Shown: positions 4,978 through 38,512 of the stretch, piece after piece
Numbering within the stretch: position 1 is the first letter of the stretch
How the letters are laid out: every line of letters starts with the position of its first letter
Source: Actinomycetes bacterium
Lineage (GTDB): Bacteria; Actinomycetota; Actinomycetes; S36-B12
NCBI GenBank assembly: GCA_024641635.1
Contig: JAHECS010000030.1
Location: 1 to 38,524 of the forward strand
Length of the DNA: 38,524 nt
Reading direction: 5' to 3'
The notes under the pieces: model-generated
Databases searched by the model: none
Told to the model about the DNA's origin: nothing
What the model saw: the letters and a program-made list of their open reading frames with translations, nothing else
Program-made: the position numbers and the translations under genes

Positions 4978-7270
4978 CCGCGATCAGCGAGTCATGCAGC
5001 AACCCGAGAAGTCGCACCGCACCCTGCTTGTCCAGCGGATTGTTGCCGTTGCCGCACTTGGGGGACTGGACGCACGACGGGCAGCCGTCTGCGCACGCAC
5101 AGTCCGCGATCGCTGACCGGGTGGCGTCCAGCCAGTCGACGGCGACACGGAATCCCCGCTCGGCGAATCCTGCGCCTCCCGGGTAGCCGTCGTAGACGAA
5201 GACCGTCGGCTGACCGGTGTCCGGGTGGCAGGCAGTGGACACGCCGCCGAGGTCCCATCGGTCGCAGGTCGCATACAGGGGTAGCAGGCCGATGGCGGCA
5301 TGCTCCGCGGCATGCGCGGCCCCGGGGATGTCGGCGGCCTCGACGCCGACGGCGACCACCGCCTCCTCGGGGAGGGTCCACCACACCGCCTGGGTGCGGA
5401 GTTCCTGAACCGGCAGGTCGAGCAGCTCCTCGCCGAGGCTCTCCCCGGTCGGGCGCCGCCGCTGGAACGACACCACCTGGGAGCTCACGTCCACGAGACC
5501 GCGATGAAGCACGCCCCCGAACGCCGACTCGAGGACGTCGACGACCCGGATGTCGCTCACGGTTCGGGCGAGCGTCGAGTAGTCGACCTCCTGCTCGACG
5601 ACGGCGGCGACCCCGTCGTCCAGGTCGAGTGCCGTGACCACATGGGTGGTGCCCTGGTGCACGTACACGGCACCGCGATGCACGGTCGCCGGAGCGGAAG
5701 CGCGGTCGACCGTGCCCAGCAGCCGGCCCGTGCCGTCCTCGACCACCCGGACCGCCGGCCCGCCGCTGCCGCGCAGGTCGGTCAGGTCCGAGGCGCGCTC
5801 GCGGCGCGTCCAGAACCAGCCGCCCGGTCGTCGGCGGAGCAGCGCCTGCCGGACGAGGTCGTCGACGATGGCGCGCGCACCGGGACCGAACCACTGGGCG
5901 AGGTCGTCCGCGGTGAGCGGGATCTCGGCCGCCGCGGCGCACAGGTGCGGCCCGAGGACGTACGGGTTCGTCGGGTCGAACACGCTGGCCTCGACACTGG
6001 CGTCGATGACCGCGGCCGGGTGGTGGACGACGAACGTGTCCAGCGGATCGTCGCGAGCGATGAAGATCCCGAGGGCCTCGACGCCGGATCGCCCGGCCCG
6101 TCCGAACTGCTGCCACAGGCTCGCCCGCGTGCCGGGCCAGCCAGCCGTCAGGACGACGTCGAGGCCGCTCACGTCGATGCCCATCTCGAGGGCGCTGGTC
6201 GTCGCCAGTGCTCGCAGTCGGCCGTCGCGCAACCGGGACTCGAGGTCGCGTCGTTCCTCCGGCAGGTAGCCGCCCCGGTAGGCAGCGACGGCATCGACGA
6301 GGCCCGGGTCGACGTCGACAAGGAGGTCGCGGGTCAGCGCAGCGGTCGTCTCCGCCCCGCGCCGGCTGCGAACGAACGCGAGGGACTGGCGGCCCTCGAC
6401 GATGCAGTCGGCCAGCAGGTCCGCCGTCTCGCCGAGGGCGCTGCGTCGCCCCGGGCTCGGCCGCTCAGGGGTGGGTTCGAGCTCGGGGGGCTCCCAGAAT
6501 CCGACGGTCATCCCGGGTCGAGGGGACGCGTCCTCCGTGACGGCGGCGACGGGCGAGCCGATGAGTCGTTCCGCTGAGACCTCCGGTTCCGCCATGGTCG
6601 CCGAGGCGACGATCACCACCGGCTCGGACCCGTAGTGGGCGCACACCCGCCGCAGCCGCCGTACGACGGCCGAGACGTGAGCGCCGAGGACGCCTCGGTA
6701 GGCGTGTGCCTCGTCGATGACGACGAGGTCGAGGCGGCGGAGGAAGGACGACCACGCGGCGTGACCGGGGAGAAGGGAGTGGTGCAGCAGGTCCGGGTTG
6801 GTGAGGACGTAGTTCGCGTGCTGACGCACCCAGGAGCGCTCGTCCGATGGCGTGTCGCCGTCGTACGTCGCAGCACGAAGCCACGGCAGGCCGAGATCGT
6901 GCAGCGAGCGGAGCTGGTCGTTGGCCAGCGCCTTTGTGGGGGACAGGTAGAGGACGGTCGATCCGCGCCCGTCGGGGGCATGGGTGCCCTGGAGGATCCC
7001 GGTCAGAGCCAGCATCCCGAACGCCATGCTCTTGCCGGACGCCGTCCCCGTGGCGATGGCGACGTGACTGCCGTCGTGCGCGGCCTGGGCGGCGTCGACC
7101 TGGTGCCGCCAAGGAGACGCGATGCCGATGTCCGCGTAGCCGGCGACCACCGGAGCAGGCACCCACTCCGGCCAGGCGGCCGCGACGGGCGGCCGCGATG
7201 GGATCCGGTGGACGTGCACGAGGCGGTCCGCACGCCCGTGTGCGAGTCGTCCGAGCAGGGTGTCTGGCAT
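4946..7270 (-). CDS. DEAH-box helicase with C-terminal DUF1998-type cysteine cluster (MrfA-like)
   Basis: 774 aa. Superfamily 2 helicase of the group linked to actinobacterial tad loci. It shows motif I ATGTASGKS (Lys80), Ia LYLSPTKALANDQL, motif II VIDEAH (186-189), motif III SATMAEP, motif IV-V (SLAFVRSRRGAETT; ATTSALEMGIDVSGLD) and motif VI QQFGRAGRSG. The C-terminal Cys cluster (CACADGCPSC ... KCGNGNNPLD) is typical of MrfA/YprA-like proteins, which act in DNA-damage repair in Bacillus subtilis. The start is the ATG at 7270 (MPDTLLGRLAHG); the open frame continues further upstream but would run into the divergent STAS gene. The role here is inferred; the family is clear. Confidence 0.9.
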   Translation of the reverse strand: MPDTLLGRLAHGRADRLVHVHRIPSRPPVAAAWPEWVPAPVVAGYADIGIASPWRHQVDAAQAAHDGSHVAIATGTASGKSMAFGMLALTGILQGTHAPDGRGSTVLYLSPTKALANDQLRSLHDLGLPWLRAATYDGDTPSDERSWVRQHANYVLTNPDLLHHSLLPGHAAWSSFLRRLDLVVIDEAHAYRGVLGAHVSAVVRRLRRVCAHYGSEPVVIVASATMAEPEVSAERLIGSPVAAVTEDASPRPGMTVGFWEPPELEPTPERPSPGRRSALGETADLLADCIVEGRQSLAFVRSRRGAETTAALTRDLLVDVDPGLVDAVAAYRGGYLPEERRDLESRLRDGRLRALATTSALEMGIDVSGLDVVLTAGWPGTRASLWQQFGRAGRSGVEALGIFIARDDPLDTFVVHHPAAVIDASVEASVFDPTNPYVLGPHLCAAAAEIPLTADDLAQWFGPGARAIVDDLVRQALLRRRPGGWFWTRRERASDLTDLRGSGGPAVRVVEDGTGRLLGTVDRASAPATVHRGAVYVHQGTTHVVTALDLDDGVAAVVEQEVDYSTLARTVSDIRVVDVLESAFGGVLHRGLVDVSSQVVSFQRRRPTGESLGEELLDLPVQELRTQAVWWTLPEEAVVAVGVEAADIPGAAHAAEHAAIGLLPLYATCDRWDLGGVSTACHPDTGQPTVFVYDGYPGGAGFAERGFRVAVDWLDATRSAIADCACADGCPSCVQSPKCGNGNNPLDKQGAVRLLGLLHDSLIAATEDPTERQP

Positions 7271-7318
7271 CGCCCCATTGTGAGGCGACCCGGTGACGTC
7301 CTGTGCGACAGTAGGCGG

Positions 7319-7657
7319 GTGGACTTCATGGTGGAGGTGTCGGAGCGCGACGGTCGCAGCGTCGTGACGGCGGCCGGTGAGCTCGATGTGCACTCGGCAC
7401 CCGTCCTGCAGGCCGAGCTGGATCCGCTGGCTCAGCGGCCCGAGGGATCCGTCGTCGTCGACCTGTCCGCCGTGGCCTTCATCGACTCGACGGGTCTGGG
7501 CGTCCTCGTCACCGCACTCAAGCACGTGCGCGAGGTCGGCGGCACCCTCGACGTGGTCGTCACCGCCCCGCGCGTGCTCAAGGTCTTCGCCCTCACCGGG
7601 CTCGATGTCGTCATCCCGTTGCACGGGTCCCTCGACGAGGCCCTCGCAACCCCCTGA
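7319..7657 (+). CDS. STAS-domain anti-sigma factor antagonist
   Basis: 112 aa. A single STAS domain: SVVTAAGELDVHSAPVLQAE, then VVDLSAVAFIDSTGLGVLVT. The serine of DSTGLG is the residue phosphorylated by anti-sigma kinases in the SpoIIAA/RsbV family. It probably releases an alternative sigma factor by binding its anti-sigma partner, but no sigma or kinase gene lies next to it. The start is either the GTG at 7319 or the ATG at 7328 (MDFMVEV); AGGCGGG at 7313-7319 is better spaced for 7328, whereas homologues usually begin with MD. It diverges from the helicase with 48 bp between them. Confidence 0.85.
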   Translation: MDFMVEVSERDGRSVVTAAGELDVHSAPVLQAELDPLAQRPEGSVVVDLSAVAFIDSTGLGVLVTALKHVREVGGTLDVVVTAPRVLKVFALTGLDVVIPLHGSLDEALATP

Positions 7658-7701
7658 CGCACCGGCCCGCGGGCGCCTCGGACGAATAGTGGGGTGGCCG
7701 C

Positions 7702-9654
7702 ATGAACGAGGCCGAATCCCGGCCGCCGACGGGGGGCCTGCGCCTCTATGCCAAGGCGCTGATCCGAACGACCCAGGGGCGGGTCGCTCTCGCCACGCTG
7801 GCGGCGATGGGGGTCTGGGCCGTCATGCGCGTGGCCGGGTGGGCCGAGTGGTGGACCGATCTGCCGCTCATCGTCATGTCGGCAGTCGTGGCGGTGCCGC
7901 TGGCCGTCGATGTCGGCCGGGGGATCCGCACCCGGACCGTCGGGGCCGACGTGCTCGGGCTGCTGGCCATGGTGACGGCCGGCGTCCTGGGCGAGTGGCT
8001 GGTCGCGGCCGTGATCGCGCTGATGGTGTCGGGCGGCCGCGCCCTCGAGGATGCGGCCTCCGCGCGCGCGTCCGCGGTCCTCGACGCGCTCGCCCGTCGC
8101 AGTCCGTCCATCGCGCATCTCCGCCGGGCAGACGGGCGCCTGGACGACGTCGAGGCCGCCCGTGTTGCCATCGGCGACACCGTCGTGATCCTGCCCCATG
8201 AGCTGTGCCCGGTGGACGGCGTCGTCATCGAGGGCCGGGGCTCGATGGACGAGTCCTACCTCACCGGCGAACCGTACGTCGTTCCGAAGACCCCGGGATC
8301 GAGCGTCCTCTCGGGCGCCATCAACAGCACGCAGGCACTGGTCGTCGAGGCGCGGCACACGGCAGCCGACAGCCGGTACGCGCAGATCGTGGGCGTGCTG
8401 GCGAGAGCCGAGTCCGAGCAGCCACCGATGCGCAGGCTGGCGGACCGTCTCGGCCTGACGTACACCCTGGTCGCCCTGGGCCTGGCGGCGATCGGCTGGG
8501 CGGTCAGCGGCGATCCGGACAGGTTCCTCGCCGTCCTCGTCATCGCGACGCCCTGCCCGCTCCTCATCGGCGTACCGGTCGCCATCATCGGCGCGATCGC
8601 TCTCGCCGCACGCCACGGCATCATCGTCAAGGACCCGTCGATGCTCGAGCGCGTGAGCACCGTGCGCACGATGATCTTCGACAAGACGGGCACGCTTACG
8701 TATGGCAAGCCCACCCTGGTCACCGTCCACGTCGCCCCGTCCCAGGACCGTGAAGAGCTGCTTCGGCTGGTGTCCTCCGTCGAGCAGTACAGCCGGCACC
8801 CGCTCGCCAGCGCCATCGTGGAGGCGCTCTCGGACCAGCCGCACGTGGCCGTGGAGCGCGTGTCGGAGATTCCGGGTGCCGGACTGGACGCGACCGCCGC
8901 GGGTCGGCGCGTGCGCGTGACCGGTCGGGCCGCCGTGGCCCAATCGCGACCCGACGTCCTCGTCGAGCTGCCGGAGGAGGCAGCGGGGCTCGAGTGCGTC
9001 GTCCTCATCGACGATGCCTACGCCGGGACCCTCCAGTTCCGTGACGAGCCGAGGCGCGGTGCGAAGGAGTTCGTCCAGCACCTGGGCAGCCGCCACGGGG
9101 TCATTCGCACCCTGCTGCTGTCCGGGGATCGGCAGAGCGAGGTCGAGTACCTGGCCGGGAAGGTGGGTCTCACGGAGGCACTGGCCCAGGTCTCACCCGA
9201 GCGGAAGCTCGAGATCGTCCGGGACGAGACGGCCTTGGCGCCGACGGTCTTCCTCGGCGACGGGATCAACGACGCGCCGGCGATGACCGCTGCGACGGTG
9301 GGAGTGGCCTTCGGCAAGAACAACGACGTCACGGCCGAGGCGGCGGACGCGGTGGTGCTGGACTCGTCCTTCCAGCGGCTGGACGAGCTCATGCACATCG
9401 GCCGTCGGATGCGTCGGATCGCCTTGCAGACCGCGATCGGGGGGATCGCGCTCAGTGCCGTGGGCATGCTGCTCGCGGTCGCGGGCCTGCTGCCGCCCAT
9501 CGCCGGGGCCATCGCGCAGGAGGTCATCGACGTGCTGGCGATACTCAACGCCACCCGGGTCGCGATGACCCGCCGCTCCATGGCGGACATGAGCACGGGT
9601 CCAGGGACGGAGGGACCTGCCGTCCGGACGCCGCCGGACGTGGTCGAGGCGTGA
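7702..9654 (+). CDS. P1B-type heavy-metal-transporting ATPase with TPC metal site
   Basis: 650 aa. Pumps a metal ion across the membrane using ATP. P-type landmarks: the actuator sequence SYLTGEP, the membrane metal site ATPCPLLIGVPVA (Thr283-Pro284-Cys285), phosphorylation motif DKTGTLT (Asp327), the HP motif SRHPLASAIVEAL diagnostic of P1B pumps, and the hinge GDGINDAPAM. There is no N-terminal CxxC metal-binding domain. The TPC site differs from the CPC of Cu/Zn/Cd pumps and the SPC of cobalt pumps, so the substrate cannot be named. About six to eight TM segments are visible. No metalloregulator gene is adjacent. Confidence 0.88.
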   Translation: MNEAESRPPTGGLRLYAKALIRTTQGRVALATLAAMGVWAVMRVAGWAEWWTDLPLIVMSAVVAVPLAVDVGRGIRTRTVGADVLGLLAMVTAGVLGEWLVAAVIALMVSGGRALEDAASARASAVLDALARRSPSIAHLRRADGRLDDVEAARVAIGDTVVILPHELCPVDGVVIEGRGSMDESYLTGEPYVVPKTPGSSVLSGAINSTQALVVEARHTAADSRYAQIVGVLARAESEQPPMRRLADRLGLTYTLVALGLAAIGWAVSGDPDRFLAVLVIATPCPLLIGVPVAIIGAIALAARHGIIVKDPSMLERVSTVRTMIFDKTGTLTYGKPTLVTVHVAPSQDREELLRLVSSVEQYSRHPLASAIVEALSDQPHVAVERVSEIPGAGLDATAAGRRVRVTGRAAVAQSRPDVLVELPEEAAGLECVVLIDDAYAGTLQFRDEPRRGAKEFVQHLGSRHGVIRTLLLSGDRQSEVEYLAGKVGLTEALAQVSPERKLEIVRDETALAPTVFLGDGINDAPAMTAATVGVAFGKNNDVTAEAADAVVLDSSFQRLDELMHIGRRMRRIALQTAIGGIALSAVGMLLAVAGLLPPIAGAIAQEVIDVLAILNATRVAMTRRSMADMSTGPGTEGPAVRTPPDVVEA

Positions 9655-27667: not shown

Positions 27668-27739
27668 GCCGCCTTAGCTCAGGGGTAGAGCAACGCACTC
27701 GTAATGCGTAGGTCCGGGGTTCAAATCCCCGAGGCGGCT
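27668..27739 (+). tRNA. tRNA-Thr (anticodon CGT)
   Basis: All arms fold. Acceptor stem 27668-27674 with 27732-27738, D stem GCTC/GAGC, anticodon stem ACGCA/TGCGT with loop CTCGTAA (anticodon CGT at 27700-27702), variable loop AGGTC, T stem CGGGG/CCCCG with loop TTCAAAT, discriminator T at 27739. CCA follows at 27740-27742. Its 3' half, from the first base of the anticodon loop, is the left copy of a 43-bp direct repeat, so it is the insertion site of the element to its right. A TAGCAT hexamer at 27616-27621 is a possible -10. Confidence 0.95.
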
Positions 27740-27740
27740 C
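27698..27740 (+). repeat. Left attachment site (43-bp direct repeat)
   Basis: Runs from the first base of the tRNA-Thr anticodon loop to just past the discriminator base. Identical to 38470-38512 over 43 bp; the flanking bases differ on both sides (A versus T before, CA versus TC after). Confidence 0.9.
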
Positions 27741-27812
27741 CAACGGAAAGTCGTTTGATAGCAACAACTGTCGCTGGTGAGCGGGCAGAGGTTTCGGGGG
27801 CCGGAATCGGCG

Positions 27813-28010: not shown

Positions 28011-28223
28011 AGAGCGTAGGTCGAAGGGTGACGTCGCCCTCACGTTGCCGCGGTCGTGGTGTCCGCTCGACCACCAGCATTCGACGTGGAACTTGCAGGT
28101 CCAGGTAGAACGGACGGATCATGCCGGAGCTGAACCGACGGCGTTCCAAAGTCCGTGATCGACGTAGTCCTCCTGCCGGTCTATGACCGCCGTCCTCCCT
28201 TGCCTGAAAGCGCCAACAATCAA

Positions 28224-28277
28224 CAGGAAACCTCCAGAATTCCTAAGGGAAGTCTCCAGGTGACCGTCCTACGGTCG
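28224..28277 (+). promoter_or_regulatory. Response-regulator-type promoter of the first ABC operon
   Basis: CAGGAAACCT (28224-28233), CTCCAG (28254-28259) and CCTACGGTCG (28268-28277), the last containing a TACGGT -10 (28270-28275). No -35 is present. GGAAACCTCCA (28226-28236) and GGAAGTCTCCA (28248-28258) are 9/11 identical and exactly two 11-bp units apart, as for OmpR-family binding sites. The layout superimposes without gaps on 32395-32448. Confidence 0.6.
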
Positions 28278-28347
28278 ACTCACCGCGCATGGTTGCGGAA
28301 GGTGCGAGTCGGCGACGGGTCGAACGTGCCCGGGAGAAGGGATCAAG

Positions 28348-29286
28348 ATGCTCGAGATAGTCGAGTTGACCAAGCGGTACGGCGATGTGACGGCCGTGGA
28401 CGGTGTCACGTTTCGGGTGCGGCCGGGCGTGGTGACGGGCTTCCTGGGTCCCAATGGTGCGGGCAAGTCGACGACCATGCGGATGATCCTTGGACTGGAC
28501 AAGCCGACCTCAGGAAGCGCCCTGGTCAACGGTCGTCCGTACGTTGATTCCCGTGCCCCGATGCGCGAACTCGGGGTCCTGCTGGATGCGCGCAACGTCG
28601 ACAAGGGCCGGTCGGCGCGCAACCACCTCCGAGCGCTGGGGGCGACCGTGGGAATCGGGCGCACGCGGGTGGAGGACCTGCTGGAGCTGGTCGGGCTGTC
28701 GGACGTGGCGGACAAGTCAGCCGGCTCCTTCTCGTTAGGCATGGGTCAGCGACTCGGAATCGCGACCGCCCTACTGGGAGATCCGTCAGTGGTGATGCTG
28801 GACGAGCCAGTCAACGGCCTGGATCCGGATGGGATCCAGTGGATCCGTGGGCTGCTCAAGGACCTTGCTGCGGAGGGGCGGACGGTGTTCGTGTCGTCCC
28901 ATCTGATGAGCGAGATGGAGCTGACGGCCGAGCATCTCGTCGTCATCGGGCGCGGTCGCATCATCGCCGACATGTCGATGGACGACTTCATCGCGAGCGC
29001 TTCGCCGGACAGGGTCCGGGTGGTCAGCCCGGAGGCGGTTCGGCTGCGTGAGCCCCTTCTGGCACTGGCAAAGTCCGTCACTTCGGCGGAGGCGCAGGTG
29101 CTGGAGGTCGAAGGCGTTCCTGCTTCGATCATCGGCGATCTCGCGGCCGAACTCGGCGTTCGGCTGCACGAGTTGACTTCCATCTCTGCCTCTCTCGAAG
29201 AGGCCTTCATGGAGCTGACGCGAGAGTCGGTTCAGTACCACGGCGCGGCCTCCGGGCACGCCACGATCGATGGAGCGCGGGCATGA
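28348..29286 (+). CDS. ABC-2 exporter ATP-binding protein
   Basis: 312 aa. Energises export by the adjacent permease. Walker A FLGPNGAGKSTTMRMILGLD, signature SLGMGQRLGIATALLG, Walker B PSVVMLDEPVNGLDPDG, H-loop FVSSHLMSEM, and a C-terminal extension of ~95 residues of the BcrA/NatA type, often linked with drug or peptide-antibiotic export. ATG 28348 with RBS GGGAGAAGGG. First gene of the element's first operon, downstream of the 28224 promoter. Its stop overlaps the permease ATG (ATGA). Confidence 0.92.
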   Translation: MLEIVELTKRYGDVTAVDGVTFRVRPGVVTGFLGPNGAGKSTTMRMILGLDKPTSGSALVNGRPYVDSRAPMRELGVLLDARNVDKGRSARNHLRALGATVGIGRTRVEDLLELVGLSDVADKSAGSFSLGMGQRLGIATALLGDPSVVMLDEPVNGLDPDGIQWIRGLLKDLAAEGRTVFVSSHLMSEMELTAEHLVVIGRGRIIADMSMDDFIASASPDRVRVVSPEAVRLREPLLALAKSVTSAEAQVLEVEGVPASIIGDLAAELGVRLHELTSISASLEEAFMELTRESVQYHGAASGHATIDGARA

Positions 29287-30128
29287 GCGCAGTCACGGTT
29301 AACGAGCGCACGTCGGCCCCTGCTGAACGCGACCTGCGGTTCACTCGCGTCTTGCGGTCCGAGTGGATCAAGCAGTGGTCGCTGCGAAGCTCGGCCATCA
29401 CCCTCGGAGCGACGCTGGCGGTGATGATCCTGTTCGGCGTGGTGTCGAGCCTGTCAGCCACGGGGTCGGTGGAGACGACAGGGCCGGGAGGCGGTGGTGG
29501 AGATCCCTTCTCAGGCAGCGGGGATCCCCTGGCCACAGTGCTGGCCGGGGCGAACTTCGGCGTACTCATCGTCAGTGTCTTCGGAGTGCTTGCCGGTGCC
29601 CGGGAGTACGGGTCGGGGATGATCCGGTCGACGATGGCGGCTGTGCCCGCCCGGCTGCCGGTTCTGTGGGCGAAGGTAGCTGTGCTGGTCTCGACGCTGC
29701 TGGTCGTCGCGGTGCTGGGCGTCTTTGTGGCCTACTTCGCCGGCAACGCGATCCTGTCGTCCGCGGATGCGGCGACAGCGCAGTGGAGCGATGAAGGAGT
29801 TGTGCGGGCACTACTCGGCAATGTCGCGTACCTCGTGGGGCTGGGCGTGATCGGCCTGGCCCTGGGACTGATCCTGCGCAGCATCGGTGGGGGCCTCGGT
29901 ACCCTGATCGGAGGGATCCTGTTCCTGCCGACCCTGGCATCGGCCCTGTTGCCCGACACCTGGGACTCGGCGTTGAAGTACCTGCCGTCGAACGCGGCAC
30001 AGTCCTTCACCGCGGTGGCCGCCCCGGAGACGCTGTTGTCGGCGGGTCAGGGTGCGGTGGTCTTCGCATTGTGGCTGGTCGTCGCGGTTGCAGGGGCCGC
30101 GGTGGCCATCCGGGTCCGGGATGTTTAG
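29283..30128 (+). CDS. ABC-2 type exporter permease
   Basis: 281 aa with six hydrophobic segments: near residues 38-58 (SSAITLGATLAVMILFGVV), 90-107 (FGVLIVSVFGVLAGAREYG), 130-155, 175-200, 205-225 and 255-276. AREYGSGMIRSTMAAVPAR is the conserved cytoplasmic loop of the ABC-2 family. A Gly-rich loop (PGGGGGDP) lies outside the membrane. It works with the overlapping ATPase gene. Substrate unknown; peptide antibiotics or lipids are plausible given the partner two-component system. Confidence 0.88.
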   Translation: MSAVTVNERTSAPAERDLRFTRVLRSEWIKQWSLRSSAITLGATLAVMILFGVVSSLSATGSVETTGPGGGGGDPFSGSGDPLATVLAGANFGVLIVSVFGVLAGAREYGSGMIRSTMAAVPARLPVLWAKVAVLVSTLLVVAVLGVFVAYFAGNAILSSADAATAQWSDEGVVRALLGNVAYLVGLGVIGLALGLILRSIGGGLGTLIGGILFLPTLASALLPDTWDSALKYLPSNAAQSFTAVAAPETLLSAGQGAVVFALWLVVAVAGAAVAIRVRDV

Positions 30129-30144
30129 ACGGAAATCCCAGAGC

Positions 30145-30188
30145 CGGGCGCGGTCCGGGCGCGGTCCGGGCGCGGTCCGGGTGTGGTT
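30145..30188 (+). repeat. 11-bp tandem repeat upstream of the response regulator
   Basis: Three exact copies of CGGGCGCGGTC (30145-30155, 30156-30166, 30167-30177) and a fourth that differs only by three C-to-T changes (30178-30188). It fills the gap between the permease stop and the RBS of the regulator. The helical-turn period suggests protein binding, or slipped-strand expansion. Confidence 0.85.
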
Positions 30189-30211
30189 GGGTGAGGATCC
30201 AGGAGACGACG

Positions 30212-30949
30212 GTGAGCTCGATGGCCAAGGAAGCAGCGCCGGTTGATGCGCGCAGCAAGGTTCTGGTGGTCGATGACGAGGTCTTCATTGCGGAGGCCCT
30301 GACCAGCGGCCTGCGGCACGCCGGATTCGACGCGCAGGCGGCCTTCGACGGGCGCAGCGCCATCGACACGGTGCAGCAGTGGGCCCCCGACCTGCTGCTG
30401 CTCGACGTCATGCTTCCGGACATGTCCGGGTACGACGTCTGTCGTGAGCTGGTGATGTCCGGCCACGACGCTGGTGTCATCTTCCTGTCGGCGCGCGGGG
30501 AGGTCTCGGACAAGGTCCGAGGATTCTCCGTGGGCGCCGACGACTACGTTCCGAAGCCGTTCAGCCTGGAGGAAGTGATCGCCCGGGTACGTGCGGTGCT
30601 TGCGCGACGGTCACGGACGGCGGCGGCCGGCCAGCCCAGGACGGCGACGATGCGCTACGCCGACGTGGCGCTGGACGATGATCGGCACCTGGTTCTTCGC
30701 GGCGACCGCGCCCTAGACCTGTCGCCGACGGAATACAGCCTGCTCCGATTCTTCCTTCAGAACCCCGAGCGGGTCCTGTCCAAGGAGCAGATCCTCGATC
30801 ACGTGTGGCGGTACGACTTCAACGGCGATACCGGGGTAGTGGAGACGTTCGTAAGCCTGCTGCGCAAGAAGCTGCACGCTGCCGGGCCACCTTTGGTGCA
30901 CACCGTCCGGGGATTCGGCTACGTTCTGCGCGAAGGCGTGGGCAGGTGA
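30212..30949 (+). CDS. OmpR/PhoB-family response regulator
   Basis: 245 aa. Receiver domain (KVLVVDDEVFIAEALTSGLR) with phospho-acceptor Asp65 in LLLLDVMLPDMSGYD, FLSARGE and the Lys of YVPKPFS. A winged-helix DNA-binding domain follows (LSPTEYSLLRFFLQNPERVL, TGVVETFVSLLRKKL, HTVRGFGYVLR). The GTG at 30212 is chosen because AGGAG (30201-30205) lies 6 bases upstream; the ATG at 30221 is an alternative. The stop overlaps the kinase GTG (GTGA). Likely target sites are the paired boxes at 28224 and 32395. Confidence 0.93.
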   Translation: MSSMAKEAAPVDARSKVLVVDDEVFIAEALTSGLRHAGFDAQAAFDGRSAIDTVQQWAPDLLLLDVMLPDMSGYDVCRELVMSGHDAGVIFLSARGEVSDKVRGFSVGADDYVPKPFSLEEVIARVRAVLARRSRTAAAGQPRTATMRYADVALDDDRHLVLRGDRALDLSPTEYSLLRFFLQNPERVLSKEQILDHVWRYDFNGDTGVVETFVSLLRKKLHAAGPPLVHTVRGFGYVLREGVGR

Positions 30950-32406
30950 AGCGTTGGCGCGGCTCCCTCCGGGTCCGGCTGCTGGCCGTCGTGGTGGTTC
31001 TGCTCGCAGTGGGGCTCTTCGCGGTCAACCTGACTGTGATCGTGACTCTGCAGTCCTTCGCCTTGGACCGCATAGACAAGGAGCTGCGCGCCGTCCCGTT
31101 GCTCTCCGCTGAGCTGCGCCAGAACGCCCCGCTGGCACCGCCGGTCGGCCTGACGCAGTACCTCAACAGCACGGTGGTAACCCTGCTCGACAAGGACACC
31201 GGTGCTGTGGTGCAGCAGGTCAACGGCCCAGCGCTCAGCGGGCAGGCCCTGCCCGACCTAGGGACTGTCACTGAGGGACTGGTCGAGGGAGTACTGGCCG
31301 CAGACTCACTGGTCACCGTGCCCGATCTCGCCGGCACTCCAGATGCCTTCCGGGTCCGCATCATCATGGACACCACCACGAACTCCGACCGAGTGGTCGT
31401 GGTGGCCAGATCGTTGGTCGAGGTCAAGGACACCGTCCGAAGAGTGGCTGTGACCGATGGGCTGATCAGCCTGGTTCTCCTGGTCGCTCTGGTGGGGATC
31501 GGCTCCTGGCTCCTGCGGGTCGGCTTGCGCCCATTGACCGAGGTGGAATCGGCCGCGGCCCGCATCCGTGACGGCGACCTGAGCGTGCGTGCGCCCCACT
31601 CACAGGACGGCAACGAGGTCGATAACCTGGCGATGACGTTCAACTCGATGCTCGATCAGATCGAAACAGCCTTCGCCGACAAGCAGGCCACCGAGGCGCA
31701 ACTGCGGCGGTTCGTCGCCGACGCGAGTCACGAGCTGCGCACGCCGCTCACCTCGATCCGTGCCTACTCCGAGCTCTTCGCCAGTGGGGCCCTCCCCGCC
31801 GACTCGGAGTCGCTCACGGCGATGCGGCGCATCGAGGCGGAAGCCACGCGGATGGGCTTGCTGGTGGACGATCTGCTGCTGCTCGCCCGACTCGACCACA
31901 CGCCCGAACTGCGATTCGACCACGTCGATCTGGCGGAGCTCGCCCGAGAGGTGGTGGCCGATGCAGAAACCGCCGCACCCGAACACCGCTGGCTGCTCAC
32001 TTCGGCAGGGCGTTGTGGGCTCGTCGCCGACGAGCTGCGCCTGCGTCAGGTCGTCGCCAACCTCACGCGAAACGCCGCGGTCCACGCACCTGCCGGAACC
32101 ACGGTCCGGGTTCTCGTGACCGATGCTGGGAACGGCGTGGAGCTCTCGGTCAGCGACGACGGGCCCGGCATGGCACCAGGCGATGCGGAGCACGCGTTCG
32201 ACAGGTTCTACCGGGCCGATCAGGGGCGTGCACGGTCCAGCGCCGGCACCGGACTGGGACTGTCGATCGTTGCCGCGATCGTTGCGGCGCACGGCGGCAC
32301 CGCCTCCATCTCGTCAGAGGTGGGCGTCGGCACGACGGTCACGGTGACCCTTCCCCGCACACCGCCGCTGCCTGAAGAAGATTCCGGGAACCCACAGGAA
32401 ACCTAA
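30946..32406 (+). CDS. Membrane sensor histidine kinase
   Basis: 486 aa. TM1 near residues 9-32 (RLLAVVVVLLAVGLFAVNLT), an extracytoplasmic sensor domain of ~145 residues, TM2 near 175-195 (LISLVLLVALVGIGSWLLRV), a HAMP linker, the HisKA box VADASHELRTPLTSIRAYSE with His262, N box NLTRNAAVHAP, G1 SDDGPGMAPGD, and G2 GTGLGLSIVAAIVAAHGG. The sensor domain has no recognised ligand site. GTG 30946 overlaps the regulator stop. Its final bases reach into the conserved CAGGAAACCT box that begins at 32395, so the kinase 3' end is part of the next promoter. Confidence 0.93.
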   Translation: MKRWRGSLRVRLLAVVVVLLAVGLFAVNLTVIVTLQSFALDRIDKELRAVPLLSAELRQNAPLAPPVGLTQYLNSTVVTLLDKDTGAVVQQVNGPALSGQALPDLGTVTEGLVEGVLAADSLVTVPDLAGTPDAFRVRIIMDTTTNSDRVVVVARSLVEVKDTVRRVAVTDGLISLVLLVALVGIGSWLLRVGLRPLTEVESAAARIRDGDLSVRAPHSQDGNEVDNLAMTFNSMLDQIETAFADKQATEAQLRRFVADASHELRTPLTSIRAYSELFASGALPADSESLTAMRRIEAEATRMGLLVDDLLLLARLDHTPELRFDHVDLAELAREVVADAETAAPEHRWLLTSAGRCGLVADELRLRQVVANLTRNAAVHAPAGTTVRVLVTDAGNGVELSVSDDGPGMAPGDAEHAFDRFYRADQGRARSSAGTGLGLSIVAAIVAAHGGTASISSEVGVGTTVTVTLPRTPPLPEEDSGNPQET

Positions 32407-32448
32407 AGCGCAGCCGCAGGGCAGCTGCAGACACGATCCCTAGCGTCG
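32395..32448 (+). promoter_or_regulatory. Response-regulator-type promoter of the efflux operon
   Basis: CAGGAAACCT (32395-32404), CTGCAG (32425-32430) and CCTAGCGTCG (32439-32448) with a TAGCGT -10 (32441-32446). Two 11-bp units, GCAGCCGCAGG (32410-32420) and GCAGCTGCAGA (32421-32431), are 9/11 identical and adjacent. No -35 is present. The box starts inside the last codons of the kinase gene. Confidence 0.6.
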
Positions 32449-32488
32449 CATTCACAACGAACTGAACGACAGCGGAGGGGCAGGGACT

Positions 32489-32530
32489 GTGGACATCATC
32501 GTGCTGCGACCGGCGGGGGTGGGCCGGTGA
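32489..32530 (+). CDS. Possible 13-residue leader peptide
   Basis: A short frame, GTG at 32489, encodes MDIIVLRPAGVGR. It has a good RBS (GGAGGGG, ~10 bases upstream), lies within the predicted 5' leader of the efflux operon, and its TGA overlaps the GTG of the adaptor gene (GTGA). That is the same coupling seen between real genes in this window. It could be a coupling or attenuation peptide, or chance. Confidence 0.35.
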   Translation: MDIIVLRPAGVGR

Positions 32531-34221
32531 GGCGCCCGGGGTGGATCCTGAATGCGATCCTCGGGCTCGTGCTGCTCGCGGTCGGCGCGGGCGCCTTCGC
32601 CGTCGTCACGTCCAGCTCCTCCTCCGAGGCAAGCGCGGCCCCCGGGCAGACCTCCACCGTCATCCGCGGGGACGTGGTCGAGACCGTGTCGGCGACAGGC
32701 AACCTGACGGCGAACAGGCAGGTCGGGGTGGACTTCACCGGTACCGGGGGCACCGTCACTCGGATCTATGTCAGCGTCGGTGACAAGGTCAAGGAAGGCG
32801 AACGTCTCGCCAAGATCGACGACACGACCGCCCGTCAGCAGTTGCGTTCAGCGGAAGCGTCGCTGGACTCGGCCAACGCCCAGTACGAAACTGCCCGTGC
32901 CGGCCAGACCAACGCTGAGCAGGTCAACTCGCGGACCTACGCACAGAACGTCGCTGCCGCCAGGGTCACCCTCGCTGACGCCGAAGCCTCGTGGTCGGAG
33001 TCATGTCTCAGCCCAGATGGGGAGTGTCCCGATCAGGCGGTCTGGGCTCAGCTTCGGGCCGCCGAAGGCGAGGTCTCCTCGGCCAAGGTCGCCTACGAGC
33101 AAGCCGTTCAGTCAGGCACACGGACGCAGGAGACCAATCAGGTGAAGCTGGGGCAGGCGCAGGTGAACGTGGACGCCGCCCGTTCGACGCAGACGACCCA
33201 GTGCGACACCTATGGTTCGACCTCGTCGGCTTGCACCAGCGCCGTGTCTGCCACCAGGAGCGCCGAGCAGGCCCTCGAACTTCAACAGCAGGCGATCTCG
33301 GCTGCAGACATCACGGCTCAGCAGTCACTCGTCAATGCGGATGCGCGCATCACGGCTGCGAACGTCGCCCTGCGCAAGCTCCAAGGGAGCCTGCGCTCGT
33401 CGGCTCAAGATGCGGTTCGCTCGGCCAGGAACGCCCTCGACTCCGCCCTCTTGGCGCAGGACAAGGGCCGGGAGACGGCCAAGCAGTCCACCGGTTCGAC
33501 GCAGGGGCAGATCGACCAGGCGTCGGCGCAGGTCCGGTCGGCGCAGGTGCAGGTCGACCAGGCCCGTACCGCGCTGGACGACACCGTCCTGCGCGCTCCC
33601 GTCGCTGGAACAGTCTCCTCCGTATCGGGCACGGTGGGGGAATCCTCCGCCAGTGCGACAGGAGCCTCGGGCACCTCGACCAGTTCGAGCACGACTACCG
33701 GGTTCGTCGTCCTGTCCAGCCTTAACCGCCTGGAGGTCACGAGCCGAGTCGCGGAGGCGGATGCGTCCCGAATCTCAGTGGGGCAGCCGGCGTCGGTGTC
33801 CTTCTCCGCGGCAGGGACGACGGCCGAGGGAGTGGTCACCGACCTCGATGTTCAGGACACGGTCACGAACAACGTGGTCGAGTACGGAGTCACTGTGTCG
33901 CTGATCGATCCGCCGAAGAACCTCAAGCTCGGCCAGACCGCCGCCGTCACGATCACCACCGGGTCGGTCACTGACGTGCTTTGGGTTCCGGCCTCCGCGG
34001 TCACCTCCCTGGCGGGCAACCACACGGTCACCGTTCGGAACAGCGATGGGACCGACAGCTCGGTGCCGGTGCAGGTGGGTCTGACGGGCGGGGACCGGAC
34101 CGAGATCGTGTCCGGGCTCACCGAAGGTCAGACCGTCGTGCTCCCGACGGGCTCGGGGCTGCCGTCCGGCTTCACCTTCCCCAACGGTGGGCCGGGTGGC
34201 ATCGGCGGAGGTCTGGGCTGA
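32527..34221 (+). CDS. Periplasmic-adaptor-like membrane fusion protein (YknX/MacA-like)
   Basis: 564 aa. N-terminal TM anchor near residues 8-28 (ILGLVLLAVGAGAFAVVTSS), lipoyl half-domain (VVETVSATGNLTANRQVGVD; VTRIYVSVGDKVKEGERLAK), a long coiled-coil hairpin (~residues 100-350), the second lipoyl half (LDDTVLRAPVAGTVSSVSGT), then beta-barrel and membrane-proximal domains. A Gly-rich tail ends the protein. The hairpin carries two Cys pairs (SCLSPDGEC and QCDTYGSTSSAC), unusual for this family. Longer than typical YknX. GTG 32527 overlaps the putative leader peptide. Its stop TGA shares a base with the next ATG. Expected partner of the MacB-like ATPase and permease. Confidence 0.87.
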   Translation: MRRPGWILNAILGLVLLAVGAGAFAVVTSSSSSEASAAPGQTSTVIRGDVVETVSATGNLTANRQVGVDFTGTGGTVTRIYVSVGDKVKEGERLAKIDDTTARQQLRSAEASLDSANAQYETARAGQTNAEQVNSRTYAQNVAAARVTLADAEASWSESCLSPDGECPDQAVWAQLRAAEGEVSSAKVAYEQAVQSGTRTQETNQVKLGQAQVNVDAARSTQTTQCDTYGSTSSACTSAVSATRSAEQALELQQQAISAADITAQQSLVNADARITAANVALRKLQGSLRSSAQDAVRSARNALDSALLAQDKGRETAKQSTGSTQGQIDQASAQVRSAQVQVDQARTALDDTVLRAPVAGTVSSVSGTVGESSASATGASGTSTSSSTTTGFVVLSSLNRLEVTSRVAEADASRISVGQPASVSFSAAGTTAEGVVTDLDVQDTVTNNVVEYGVTVSLIDPPKNLKLGQTAAVTITTGSVTDVLWVPASAVTSLAGNHTVTVRNSDGTDSSVPVQVGLTGGDRTEIVSGLTEGQTVVLPTGSGLPSGFTFPNGGPGGIGGGLG

Positions 34222-34964
34222 TGACCACGGCGCAGCGACCGGTCATCGACCTGACCGACGTGACGAAGACCTACGGCGAGGGCGACACCGTCGTGCACGC
34301 CCTCGCCGGGGTCACGCGCCGTGTGGAGCGCGGGGACTACGTCGCCGTGATGGGCGCTTCGGGGTCGGGGAAGTCGACCCTGATGAACATCATCGGCTGC
34401 CTGGACTCGCCGACGGCGGGACGCTACCTGCTTGACGGCGTAGACGTCCGCCACCGTGATGACGCGCAGCTGTCCCGCATCCGCAACCGCAAGATCGGGT
34501 TCGTCTTCCAGAGCTTCAACCTCATTCCACGCACCAGCGCTCTGAGCAACGTCGAGCTCCCGCTGGCCTACGCGGGGGTCAGGGCCGCCGAACGGCGCCG
34601 GCGAGCCCTCGATGCGCTGACGCGGGTTGGGCTGCGTGATCGTGCCGGACACCTGCCCTCTCAGCTGTCCGGAGGACAGCAGCAGCGCGTGGCGGTGGCG
34701 CGGGCCATCGTCACCGAGCCGGTGCTGCTGCTGGCCGACGAGCCGACAGGCGCCCTGGACTCACATTCCACTGCCGAGGTGCTCGACCTGTTCGACGAGT
34801 TGTCGGCCGCCGGCCGGACCCTCGTCGTGATCACCCACGAGGACGAGGTGGCCGCACGCGCCAAGCGCGTACTACGGATGCGCGACGGCGTCGTCGTCGA
34901 GGACGTCCGCACTGTCGCGGTCACCGACCTGCCTCCTGACATGGGAGCGCTGGTGGAGGCATGA
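34221..34964 (+). CDS. MacB/LolD-type ABC ATPase
   Basis: 247 aa. Walker A VMGASGSGKSTLMNIIGCLD, Q-loop FVFQSFNLIPRTSALSNVEL, signature LSGGQQQRVAVARAIV, Walker B LLLADEPTGALDSHS, and H-loop VVITHEDE. This is the standard pattern of ATPases that drive mechanotransmission-type permeases (MacB, YknY). The ATG at 34221 overlaps the adaptor stop by one base. Its stop overlaps the permease ATG (ATGA). Confidence 0.93.
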   Translation: MTTAQRPVIDLTDVTKTYGEGDTVVHALAGVTRRVERGDYVAVMGASGSGKSTLMNIIGCLDSPTAGRYLLDGVDVRHRDDAQLSRIRNRKIGFVFQSFNLIPRTSALSNVELPLAYAGVRAAERRRRALDALTRVGLRDRAGHLPSQLSGGQQQRVAVARAIVTEPVLLLADEPTGALDSHSTAEVLDLFDELSAAGRTLVVITHEDEVAARAKRVLRMRDGVVVEDVRTVAVTDLPPDMGALVEA

Positions 34965-36250
34965 ACCTGTCCGAGTCCTGGCGGTTCGCTCTGCGTGGCG
35001 TGTCCGCGAACAAGACCCGATCCGCGTTGACCACCCTCGGCATCATCATCGGTGTCGCATCGGTGATCATCCTCGTGGCCGTCGGGACGGGGTCGGCCAA
35101 GGCGGTGGAGGATTCCATCAGCTCACTGGGGTCCAACACCATGACCGTGACCCCGACAGGCACGCAGGGCGGCGGGATCGCCGGTGGCGGGGGACTGGCC
35201 GGGATCGCCTCCCTGTTCGGCGGAGGCGGGGCTGCCAAGACCGACACCGGCACCAAGACCCGCAATCCGACCCTGACCATGGAGGACGCCCGCGCCCTGA
35301 CCGACACCACCGCGGCTCCCGACGTCATCGGGGTGGCTCCGGTCGTGTCCGGGCAGAACATCGTCGCGACGTACGAGGGCGCCTCCCACTCGGTGCCGAC
35401 GTTCTCTGGTTCCACCCCGGCCTACTTGGGGATCAACAACGACACGATTAGCGCCGGAACGGCGTTCACCGACGCCGACTACGAGTCACATCGACGCGTG
35501 GTCCTGCTGGGCTCGACGGTCGCTGAGCAACTGGTGGGTCAGGACACGACGGCGTTGGTCGGACAGAGCGTCTCGTTCAACGGCAAGGCCTTCACGGTCG
35601 TCGGAATCCTGGGCGAGAAGGGATCGACCGGTCCGCTCGACAACGATGACCGTGTCATCGCTCCCGCCACTGCCGTGCAGGACACGCTCACCGGATACGA
35701 GGACCTCTCCTCGATCTCCGTGAAGGCCTCGTCGTCGGACACCACCGCATCGGCACAGGACCAGGTGACGGCGATCCTCGACGGTCGGCACAACACCACC
35801 GCGGCGACGCGCGACTTCTCCGTGTTCAACTCCGCCACCATCCTGTCGGCTGCGACGTCCTCGAACGACACCTTCACCGTCCTGCTCGGTGCCGTCGCGG
35901 CGATTTCCCTGCTCGTCGGCGGGATCGGGGTCATGAACATCATGCTGGTGACCGTCACTGAGCGGACCCGTGAGATCGGGATTCGCAAAGCCATCGGTGC
36001 AGGCAAGGGCGACATCGTCACTCAGTTCCTGCTCGAGGCGGTGATCCTGTCGCTTCTCGGCGGCGTCGTCGGGGTCGTTCTGGGCCTGATCGGTTCGCAG
36101 TTCACCATCGTCGGCGTGGTCCCGATCGTGGCGCCCTACTCCGTCGTCCTGGCCTTCGCCGTGGCTCTGGCCACGGGACTGTTCTTCGGCCTCTACCCCG
36201 CCAGTCGCGCAGCGTCGCTGCGCCCCATCGATGCCCTGCGTTACGAGTGA
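34961..36250 (+). CDS. MacB/YknZ-type permease
   Basis: 429 aa. The topology is that of a MacB-family permease: TM1 near residues 20-45 (TRSALTTLGIIIGVASVIIL), a large extracytoplasmic domain of ~250 residues with a Gly-rich loop (GGGIAGGGGLAGIASLFGGG), then three TM helices at the C-terminus (LLGAVAAISLLVGGIGVMNI; LEAVILSLLGGVVGVVLGLI; YSVVLAFAVALATGLFFGLY) with the conserved RTREIGIRKAIGA and YPASRAASLRPIDALRYE motifs. It should extrude a substrate or transmit force through the adaptor. Substrate unknown. Confidence 0.92.
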   Translation: MNLSESWRFALRGVSANKTRSALTTLGIIIGVASVIILVAVGTGSAKAVEDSISSLGSNTMTVTPTGTQGGGIAGGGGLAGIASLFGGGGAAKTDTGTKTRNPTLTMEDARALTDTTAAPDVIGVAPVVSGQNIVATYEGASHSVPTFSGSTPAYLGINNDTISAGTAFTDADYESHRRVVLLGSTVAEQLVGQDTTALVGQSVSFNGKAFTVVGILGEKGSTGPLDNDDRVIAPATAVQDTLTGYEDLSSISVKASSSDTTASAQDQVTAILDGRHNTTAATRDFSVFNSATILSAATSSNDTFTVLLGAVAAISLLVGGIGVMNIMLVTVTERTREIGIRKAIGAGKGDIVTQFLLEAVILSLLGGVVGVVLGLIGSQFTIVGVVPIVAPYSVVLAFAVALATGLFFGLYPASRAASLRPIDALRYE

Positions 36251-36257
36251 GGACCCC

Positions 36258-36794
36258 ATGAGCACACCGTTGGACGACCCGCTGGCCACCTCCGTCCCGT
36301 CCGCTCCGGACACTGCATCGGAGCAGTCGGACGACTGGGACGAGGAGTTTCCGAGCGCCCGGTCCTCCCGGCGCACCAGGTCGATCCGGCTGCTGCTGAT
36401 CGGCGGCATCGTCGCCGGCGTGGCCTTCACGGCCGGAGTGACCGTGGAGAAGCGAACCGGCGACGCAAGCACCAACGCCTTCCCCCCGGGCCTGGGGGCC
36501 GGTGGAGCGTTGCCCGCCGGGCTGAGCAGCCTGCTCGGAGGCGGCGCCGGCGCGGGTGCAGCGCCGGCGAGCAGCGCCGCCGTCGTCGGCACCGTGATCG
36601 CCGTAGACGCCGACGTCATCACTGTCGAGGACCTTGGCGGCAACCGCTACCAGATCCAGACGAGCCCCACCACGACGATCACCGCCACCCGGCCCTTGAC
36701 GTCCGACGAGCTGGTACCCGGTCAGAGCGTCTCCGTGACCGGCACCAAGCACACCGACAGCACTGTCGATGCCACGGCGATCACCGCCCGCTGA
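36258..36794 (+). CDS. Single-TM protein with DUF5666-like beta domain
   Basis: 178 aa. Acidic N-terminal tail, basic stretch (RSSRRTRSIR), one TM helix near residues 41-58 (LLLIGGIVAGVAFTAGVTV), a Gly/Ala-rich linker, and a C-terminal OB-like domain (VVGTVIAVDADVITVEDLGG; QSVSVTGTKHTDSTVDATAI) resembling DUF5666. The domain should lie outside the membrane. Similar proteins occur beside MacB-type operons, but a function is not known. The ATG at 36258 lies 7 bp after the permease stop with GTGAGGA upstream. Confidence 0.65.
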   Translation: MSTPLDDPLATSVPSAPDTASEQSDDWDEEFPSARSSRRTRSIRLLLIGGIVAGVAFTAGVTVEKRTGDASTNAFPPGLGAGGALPAGLSSLLGGGAGAGAAPASSAAVVGTVIAVDADVITVEDLGGNRYQIQTSPTTTITATRPLTSDELVPGQSVSVTGTKHTDSTVDATAITAR

Positions 36795-36835: not shown

Positions 36836-37231
36836 ATGAGATTCCGCACCCCCATCGTCATCGTCAGCCTTGGGATCACCGCCCTGCTGGCGGTCGGCTG
36901 TTCCTCGTCGAGTTCGAGCGAGGACAGCGCCACACCACCAGCCAGCGCACCCGCCGTCTCCACCGAGATCCAGGGCTCGCGGCCGCCCTTCGATCCCAGC
37001 CAGTTCCAGGCCGTTCAGGCGTGCCTGTCCGCTGCGGGACTCGACGGTGACCTCCCATCCCCGCCGTCGGGTGCCACTCCCGGTGGCACCGCCTCACCGC
37101 CTGCCGGCGGCCCTGACATCGCCGGCTTCCAGAATCTGCTGCGAGACCCGTCCGTGCAGGAGGCCCTCGCGGCCTGCGGCATCACCATCCCGACCACGTT
37201 GCCCACCCTCGCACCCTCGGGCACCCCGTAG
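36836..37231 (+). CDS. Small lipoprotein with two Cys motifs
   Basis: 131 aa. Lipobox LLAVGC (cleavage before Cys22), a Ser-rich linker, then two related short motifs, FQAVQACLSAAGLDGDLPS and VQEALAACGITIPTTLPT, each with one cysteine, joined by a Pro/Gly-rich spacer. The pair could form a disulfide or bind a ligand on the outer face of the membrane. ATG 36836 with GAGAGGTCTTCC upstream. Last gene of the operon, ended by a strong hairpin. Not assigned to a named family. Confidence 0.65.
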   Translation: MRFRTPIVIVSLGITALLAVGCSSSSSSEDSATPPASAPAVSTEIQGSRPPFDPSQFQAVQACLSAAGLDGDLPSPPSGATPGGTASPPAGGPDIAGFQNLLRDPSVQEALAACGITIPTTLPTLAPSGTP

Positions 37232-38469: not shown

Positions 38470-38512
38470 CTCGTAATGCGTAGGTCCGGGGTTCAAATCC
38501 CCGAGGCGGCTC
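38470..38512 (+). repeat. Right attachment site (43-bp direct repeat, tRNA-Thr 3' half)
   Basis: Exact copy of 27698-27740. It lacks the 5' half of a tRNA and cannot be functional. It is followed by TCGG rather than CA, so the displaced host copy did not encode CCA. Confidence 0.9.

Follow-up and report, generated by a model that had tools for sequence, protein, structure and literature searches.

Gene content and promoter sites of the cassette

The window analysed here, a stretch of 38,524 nucleotides, is one entire contig (JAHECS010000030.1) of the 3.06-Mb genome of an actinomycete (assembly GCA_024641635.1). It carries an exporter cassette with two promoter sites, P1 and P2, whose predicted control by the cassette's own response regulator is the subject of this work. 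The genes lie on the + strand in the order ABC1, PERM1, RR (the response regulator), HK (the histidine kinase), and then MFP, ABC2, MACB, a gene for a DUF5666-like protein and one for a putative lipoprotein; a tRNA-Thr gene (27668–27742, + strand) precedes them. ABC1 (28348–29286) encodes an ABC-2-type exporter ATPase, recognized by Pfam ABC_tran and resembling TIGR03740/DrrA below the cut-off. PERM1 (29283–30128) encodes its membrane partner, which has no Pfam or NCBIfam match, and a match to which was found in 13 of 85 genomes of the family, the cassette's own genome counted. RR (30212–30949) encodes a PhoP-like response regulator with the recognition helix VVETFVSLLRKKL, and its place in the OmpR/PhoB family follows from a receiver domain (PF00072) and a C-terminal winged helix (PF00486), both above cut-off. 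HK (30946–32406) encodes a sensor histidine kinase with HAMP, HisKA and HATPase_c domains.

The second group of genes begins with MFP (32527–34221), for an HlyD/MacA-type adaptor, ABC2 (34218–34964), for a MacB/LolD-type ATPase, and MACB (34961–36250), for a MacB/FtsX-type permease, all three named with Pfam and NCBIfam. Among the NCBIfam families shown, that of the MFP adaptor alone passes its cut-off, as the broad RND_mfp subfamily, and no equivalog does. The DUF5666-like protein (36231–36794) scores 23.9 bits in Pfam, slightly under the cut-off of 27, while the small putative lipoprotein (36836–37231) belongs to no Pfam or NCBIfam family and takes its label from a lipobox-like start read off the sequence.

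P1 and P2, upstream of ABC1 and MFP respectively, are built on a shared plan: four 7-bp half-sites (approximately CNNCAGG) in 11-bp steps, 5 nt, and a TANNNT −10 element, without a −35 element. The P1 array (28221–28264, + strand) contains the half-sites CAACAGG, CTCCAGA, CTAAGGG and CTCCAGG; its 11-bp steps read CAACAGGAAAC CTCCAGAATTC CTAAGGGAAGT CTCCAGGTGAC, followed by 5 nt and TACGGT (28270–28275), which would place a start site at about 28282. The P2 array (32392–32435, + strand) contains CCACAGG, CTAAAGC, CCGCAGG and CTGCAGA; its steps read CCACAGGAAAC CTAAAGCGCAG CCGCAGGGCAG CTGCAGACACG, followed by 5 nt and TAGCGT (32441–32446), with a probable start site at about 32453. The first P2 half-site falls within the 3′ end and stop codon of HK (PQET-stop).

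An initial annotation had described the two sites by a spelled composite pattern, and had predicted that the cassette's OmpR-type regulator activates both operons. Its observation is confirmed: the composite occurs exactly at 28224–28277 and 32395–32448 on the + strand, with no other match in the window (and 0 in 100 shuffles), and the 3.06-Mb genome holds two forward and no reverse matches, which are these two sites only. Both −10 elements were found as it had named them. The lack of a −35 that it reported was borne out as well, for no sigma-70-type promoter passed a scan of 28100–32600, and at spacers of 15–19 the best TTGACA match was 2/6 and 3/6 at the two sites. Its 11-bp phasing proved real, with four registers per site: at period 11 the sites reach 19.1 and 23.7, where the background maximum is 14.6, while at periods 8–10 and 12–14 both score at most 8.1, so that only 11 among the periods 8–14 exceeds background. 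The geometry is that of a class II promoter, in which the operator replaces the −35 at a fixed distance from the −10.

Two smaller features lie close to these sites. A 13-codon leader open reading frame (32489–32530) has a GTG start behind a GGAGG-like site, and its stop overlaps the GTG start of MFP, a possible case of translational coupling. Between PERM1 and RR, 3.5 perfect GC-rich 11-bp repeats of CCGGGCGCGGT occupy 30144–30181; they are not half-sites and were rejected as such, and their predicted fold is ordinary (z −0.66).

Arrays at orthologous regulators and exporter promoters

Close relatives of RR are few. In a class-wide search in which the seven best candidates were scored per genome, 6 of 394 genomes pass an E value of 1e-78, the cassette's own included. 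Named relatives belong to Nonomuraea and Nocardia, and within the cassette's own family no other regulator exceeds 54% identity to RR. The top orthologs are those of G351 (locus L106, 72% identity) and G145 (locus L107, 65% identity). L106 has the RR-HK pair and none of the other cassette genes in its 12-kb stretch, and L107 has RR-HK followed by MFP-ABC2-MACB. A matrix built on the eight half-sites of the window alone places the site upstream of RR first among the 23,914 positions of L106, and in L107 (16,378 positions) it gives the first two places to the sites upstream of RR and MFP, in that order. The array thus precedes the RR operon at P1 and the RR genes of the orthologs alike, and because L106 has the array with RR-HK yet without the other cassette genes, the motif follows the regulator. 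Applied to the window only, an ortholog matrix of 11 half-sites left a gap for P2 from 17.3 to 9.1.

The same linkage is seen at exporter promoters, for which 27 of 32 loci were used, L038 and L059–L062 being excluded for cut or split matches. An array scoring at least 18 with a −10 at +5 is present in all nine MFP promoters linked to a response regulator (window P2 counted), all of which score at least 22. Among MFP promoters with no regulator seen, as judged from 1.5-kb flanks and a genome search at E 1e-60, the combination occurs in 0 of 18; two score 18.1 and 18.4 and lack the −10. No regulator passed E 1e-60 in 17 of these 18 genomes; G074, which is not among the 17, contains L058, a locus counted as unlinked despite a 35%-identity regulator in the stretch. 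L036 offered merely 74 bases of upstream-plus-start sequence, and L040, L041 and L057 are near-identical. Random 290-bp pieces of the cassette's own genome satisfied the array-plus-−10 rule in 5 of 3000 cases.

In the five genomes where regulator and exporter are divergent, the MFP side has array and −10 in 5/5, and the RR side has them at the same offset in 4/5, L074 having an array without the −10. Upstream of ABC1-PERM1 in 10 other loci of the family the combination was absent (0/10; L025 scores 19.6 without a −10, and L024 had only about 205 upstream bases available). In the window, control of this pair seems to have passed to the promoter of the regulator.

The relatives also vary in layout and in leader length. 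In L111 (G111:C71) the exporter genes, a DUF5666-like gene, RR and HK are consecutive on one strand, with an array at the MFP promoter and none seen directly before RR. The MFP start codon stands just 6–8 nt past the −10 in L039, L040, L041, L054, L055, L057 and L111, which suggests that their MFP transcripts are leaderless or nearly so; the window leaders, of a likely 66–74 nt, are unlike these short ones.

Several observations weigh against control of both operons by RR, beginning with the pair of sites itself. The 54-mers of P1 and P2 are identical at 28 of 54 letters. As many as 27,190 window offsets contain some 54-mer pair equally or more alike, shuffled upstream regions attain 28/54 in 194 of 1000 pairs, and the best local match between the two upstream regions is equalled or beaten in 31 of 1000 shuffle pairs; the pairwise resemblance by itself is marginal. 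Half-site 3 of P1 and half-site 2 of P2 are poor. The composite, a spelling chosen after the fact, had been expected near homologous cassettes, and this expectation failed: even a loosened form is absent from the other 84 genomes of the family. In wider genome contigs the loosened form gave 17 matches scattered across many phyla. With the nine cassette proteins, tblastn matched 6 of these 17 stretches, solely by ABC2 at 26–34% identity, and two of the 17, from actinobacteria (Rhodococcoides, Streptomyces), have no cassette genes in their 8-kb stretches; these matches look like chance, and the composite was rejected as a homology test. Since the pattern was fitted post hoc and the pairwise likeness is weak, the weight rests on the comparative evidence, and the conserved object is the degenerate half-site array and not the spelled composite.

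That comparison supplies further support, with limits of its own. A reverse matrix (12 half-sites from L106 and L107) put P1 and P2 in first and second place among 875,242 positions in 438 kb, comprising the window and a 400-kb sample of its own genome; the 20 background stretches were hand-chosen from larger contigs and are non-random. P1 scored 29.7, and the second rank of P2 is narrow, since P2 in its proper register reached 16.3 and the best unrelated place (L184 17042) 15.4, and it was obtained partly via overlapping opposite-strand and shifted readings (16.9, 16.7). The ortholog half-sites of this matrix were picked in register with the window motif already known, a choice of which the window-derived matrix is free. 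Five arrays from three genomes align gap-free over array and −10 with 13 of 57 columns invariant, compared with a maximum of 6 in 20,000 random picks that were not matched for site selection. A three-sequence ortholog profile, R2, gave matches in 7 of the other 17 genomes at E 0.02 to 3.7 (that at G052:C24 is the linked MFP promoter of its genome) and no match in the cassette's own genome at E up to 10. Within the window, four of its top five matches (E 0.03–0.9) fell at P1 and P2, and two of these four were opposite-strand matches. R2 was dropped as a genome-wide test for being too weak. A five-sequence profile picks out P1 and P2 as the only genome sites at E up to 10, a result in keeping with a dedicated circuit; here 150 of 551 first-look candidates were scored, and the model sites include P1 and P2 themselves.

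These figures bear on a sceptical account in which the pair is a promoter of an extracytoplasmic function (ECF) sigma factor, its ends being GGAAAC and CGTC-like, or two upstream regions that match by chance. GGAAAC and GTCG do occur in both sites, and the low pairwise significance suits such an account. ECF promoters have a GGAAC-like −35 and a CGTC-like −10, 16–17 bp apart. In both sites, by contrast, about 40 bp separate the GGAAAC and GTCG blocks, which is not the layout of an ECF promoter, and other genomes have counterparts of the half-sites that lie between these blocks in 11-bp phase. We give this account hardly any credence.

One further place in the cassette's own genome (G000:C61; L180 11144–11187, score 13.1) was considered as a third site and rejected, having only two good half-sites, CCACAGG and ACACAGG, and no −10 at +5. 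The kinase gene at whose start it lies is, in our reading, SenX3-like.

Recognition helix, spacing and mode of control

The closest solved structure to RR is that of Mycobacterium tuberculosis PhoP (E 2.7e-68). PhoP recognizes TCACAGC repeats separated by 4-bp spacers; its Tyr217 contacts bases 1 and 2, Tyr220 base 2, and Asn212, Ser216 and Glu215 the central bases (PMC4832192). RR does not have the same set of contact residues: Val213 and Glu215 are kept, and Asn212, Ser216, Tyr217 and Tyr220 are replaced by Gly, Thr, Phe and Leu. We take RR to be a PhoP relative with its own specificity, not PhoP itself.

This substitution has a counterpart in the DNA. RR and its two orthologs share the helix VVETF(V/I)S-x-LRKKL, and most relatives form a second group with the PhoP-like helix VVESY(V/I/M)SYLR(R/K)K, a summary label, as a few members read VENY, VETY or similar. 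Half-sites of the VVETF group keep CAG and start with C in 17 of 20 cases and never with T, and of those in the other arrays 9 of 92 start with C and 60 of 92 with T; Fisher values are merely indicative here because the half-sites within one array are not independent. The DNA change falls on bases that the changed residues are predicted to contact.

Co-variation of this kind also bears on whether another OmpR-family protein of the cell might bind the arrays while the linked RR acts elsewhere. The CAG core, being common to arrays of many PhoP-like regulators, would allow it. However, the array follows RR orthologs even where other cassette genes are not nearby, base 1 of the half-site changes together with this particular helix, and the 18 exporter promoters with no linked regulator seen are devoid of array plus −10. 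Binding by another protein therefore seems very unlikely to us.

The distance between array and −10 was surveyed across the class in 51 regions, namely those upstream of 41 regulators (46–72% identical), 8 linked exporter promoters and the two window sites. The 41 regulators are best matches from earlier searches (one of which gave loci for 30 of its matches) and constitute an uneven sample of the class. In a first version ten duplicate loci were left out and 42 rows kept, of which L103, a contig-edge artefact, was later removed. Although the survey sought four CAG-type half-sites and was blind to the −10, 37 of the 51 regions score at least 18 at period 11, whereas any other period from 8 to 14 gives at most 4 of 51. 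The arrays are PhoP-type tandem sites, in which 7-bp half-sites recur in direct orientation with a 4-bp spacer, and among the periods 8–14 this holds at 11 alone. NANNNT lies exactly 5 nt downstream in 24 of 28 non-redundant arrays (22 of 26 minus the window's two), and every other offset from 0 to 14 accounts for at most 3 of the 28.

Such a constant distance is relevant to the direction of control. RR could bind both arrays and repress, covering the −35 region and exerting negative autoregulation of both operons; the arrays do cover the polymerase site, and some OmpR-family proteins act as repressors. Yet neither site has a usable −35, so these promoters would be weak without help, and the 5 nt shared by 24 of 28 arrays is expected of an activator that touches sigma and is unneeded by a repressor. 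We regard repression as improbable.

We consider it highly probable, instead, that the PhoP-like RR encoded at 30212 activates both cassette operons, its own included. The initially predicted link between the arrays and the cassette's own regulator finds support outside the window, in the way the array tracks orthologs of the regulator, in its presence at both operons elsewhere, in the constant distance to the −10 and in the helix co-variation. In response to a presumed signal, the kinase would phosphorylate RR, which would then bind DNA head to tail as two tandem dimers on the four 7-bp half-sites, 11 bp apart. The final half-site would be positioned 9 bp upstream of the TANNNT −10, over the missing −35; from that position RR would recruit RNA polymerase via sigma region 4, as has been proposed for PhoB and M. 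tuberculosis PhoP. P1 would drive the ABC exporter genes together with RR and HK, amounting to positive autoregulation, and P2 the putative operon of the MacAB-like exporter, with its presumed substrate. The type of control would be PhoB/PhoP-type tandem-site activation, making the cassette a well-marked new example of a known mode and a two-promoter circuit that is readable straight from its sequence.

Related systems and the tRNA-Thr setting

Among titles listed from the open-licence literature, none dealt with this cassette or with a CNNCAGG/TCACAGG array, and six papers contain the letters TCACAGG; the array may therefore have been published before. Among known systems, Pho boxes, with half-sites CTGTCAT or GTTCACC, differ from the window arrays in half-site sequence and in regulon. 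They are alike in the 11-bp head-to-tail repeats of E. coli PhoB and Streptomyces PhoP, and the PhoB box replaces the −35 (PMC3413638, for PhoB). M. tuberculosis PhoP shares 7-bp half-sites, 4-bp spacers, the head-to-tail arrangement and the CAG core, and its own phoP promoter bears repeats (PMC4832192, PMC3413638). By analogy to PhoB, PhoP has been proposed to sit over the −35 at lipF and pks2, in a class II position (PMC3413638). The window differs in that its half-site starts with C where that of PhoP starts with T, in having four registers at both cassette promoters, and in the two genome sites found here compared with 87 genes proposed for PhoP (PMC4832192, PMC3413638).

GlnR and the Streptomyces antibiotic regulatory proteins (SARPs) also have OmpR-type DNA-binding domains, used on repeats that lie close to the −10 at distances of 11 or 22 bp; a described GlnR complex has four sites on a single promoter, and the SARP 3′ repeat is 8 bp from the −10, against 9 bp in the window (PMC10704036, PMC10936776). 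SARPs carry a BTA domain, which RR lacks; Pfam shows only Response_reg and Trans_reg_C, and RR was rejected as a SARP activator. The GlnR box is GTNAC-type, unlike the window half-sites. In gene content the cassette resembles loci in which MacAB-type and lantibiotic-protection-type ABC exporters stand beside two-component systems, but it unites two exporters and their regulator.

A broader proposal can be built on these results, and we regard it, taken as one joint claim, as standing at even chances. In its first part, PhoP-like regulators of the actinobacterial class would share a strict grammar of four 11-bp half-sites, exactly 5 nt and NANNNT, in which a few recognition-helix residues determine bases 1 and 2 of the half-site. 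In its second part, the cassette would form a self-contained mobile unit, probably sited on a tRNA-Thr island; its regulator would use a privately shifted code and address only two promoters, an arrangement that would insulate the unit from the host's related regulators. The same rule would give binding sites and start sites for many uncharacterized PhoP-like regulators, and, since base 1 co-varies with the helix, the specificity code of this regulator group can be put to a direct test; conserved grammar and co-variation together may provide parts of use to specialists. The tRNA-bounded location also hints at a way in which a circuit of this sort might be transferred free of cross-talk.

That location is marked by a 43-bp exact direct repeat on the + strand. 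The left copy (27698–27740) is the 3′ part of the tRNA-Thr gene, and the right copy (38470–38512) ends 12 bp from the contig end. With these repeats on either side, the cassette occupies a segment of about 10.8 kb whose borders resemble those of an integrated island. The proximity of the right copy to the contig end weakens this reading, because an assembly effect may explain that repeat; on balance, a position on a tRNA-Thr island is probable. A related arrangement was seen in G145 at L107, where a phage-type integrase gene (6781–8031) stands between a tRNA-Gly gene and a 39-nt copy of the tRNA-Gly 3′ end. The two 39-nt stretches (6060–6098 and 8110–8148) are 95% identical, and the integrase gene and the second copy are located directly upstream of the RR promoter.

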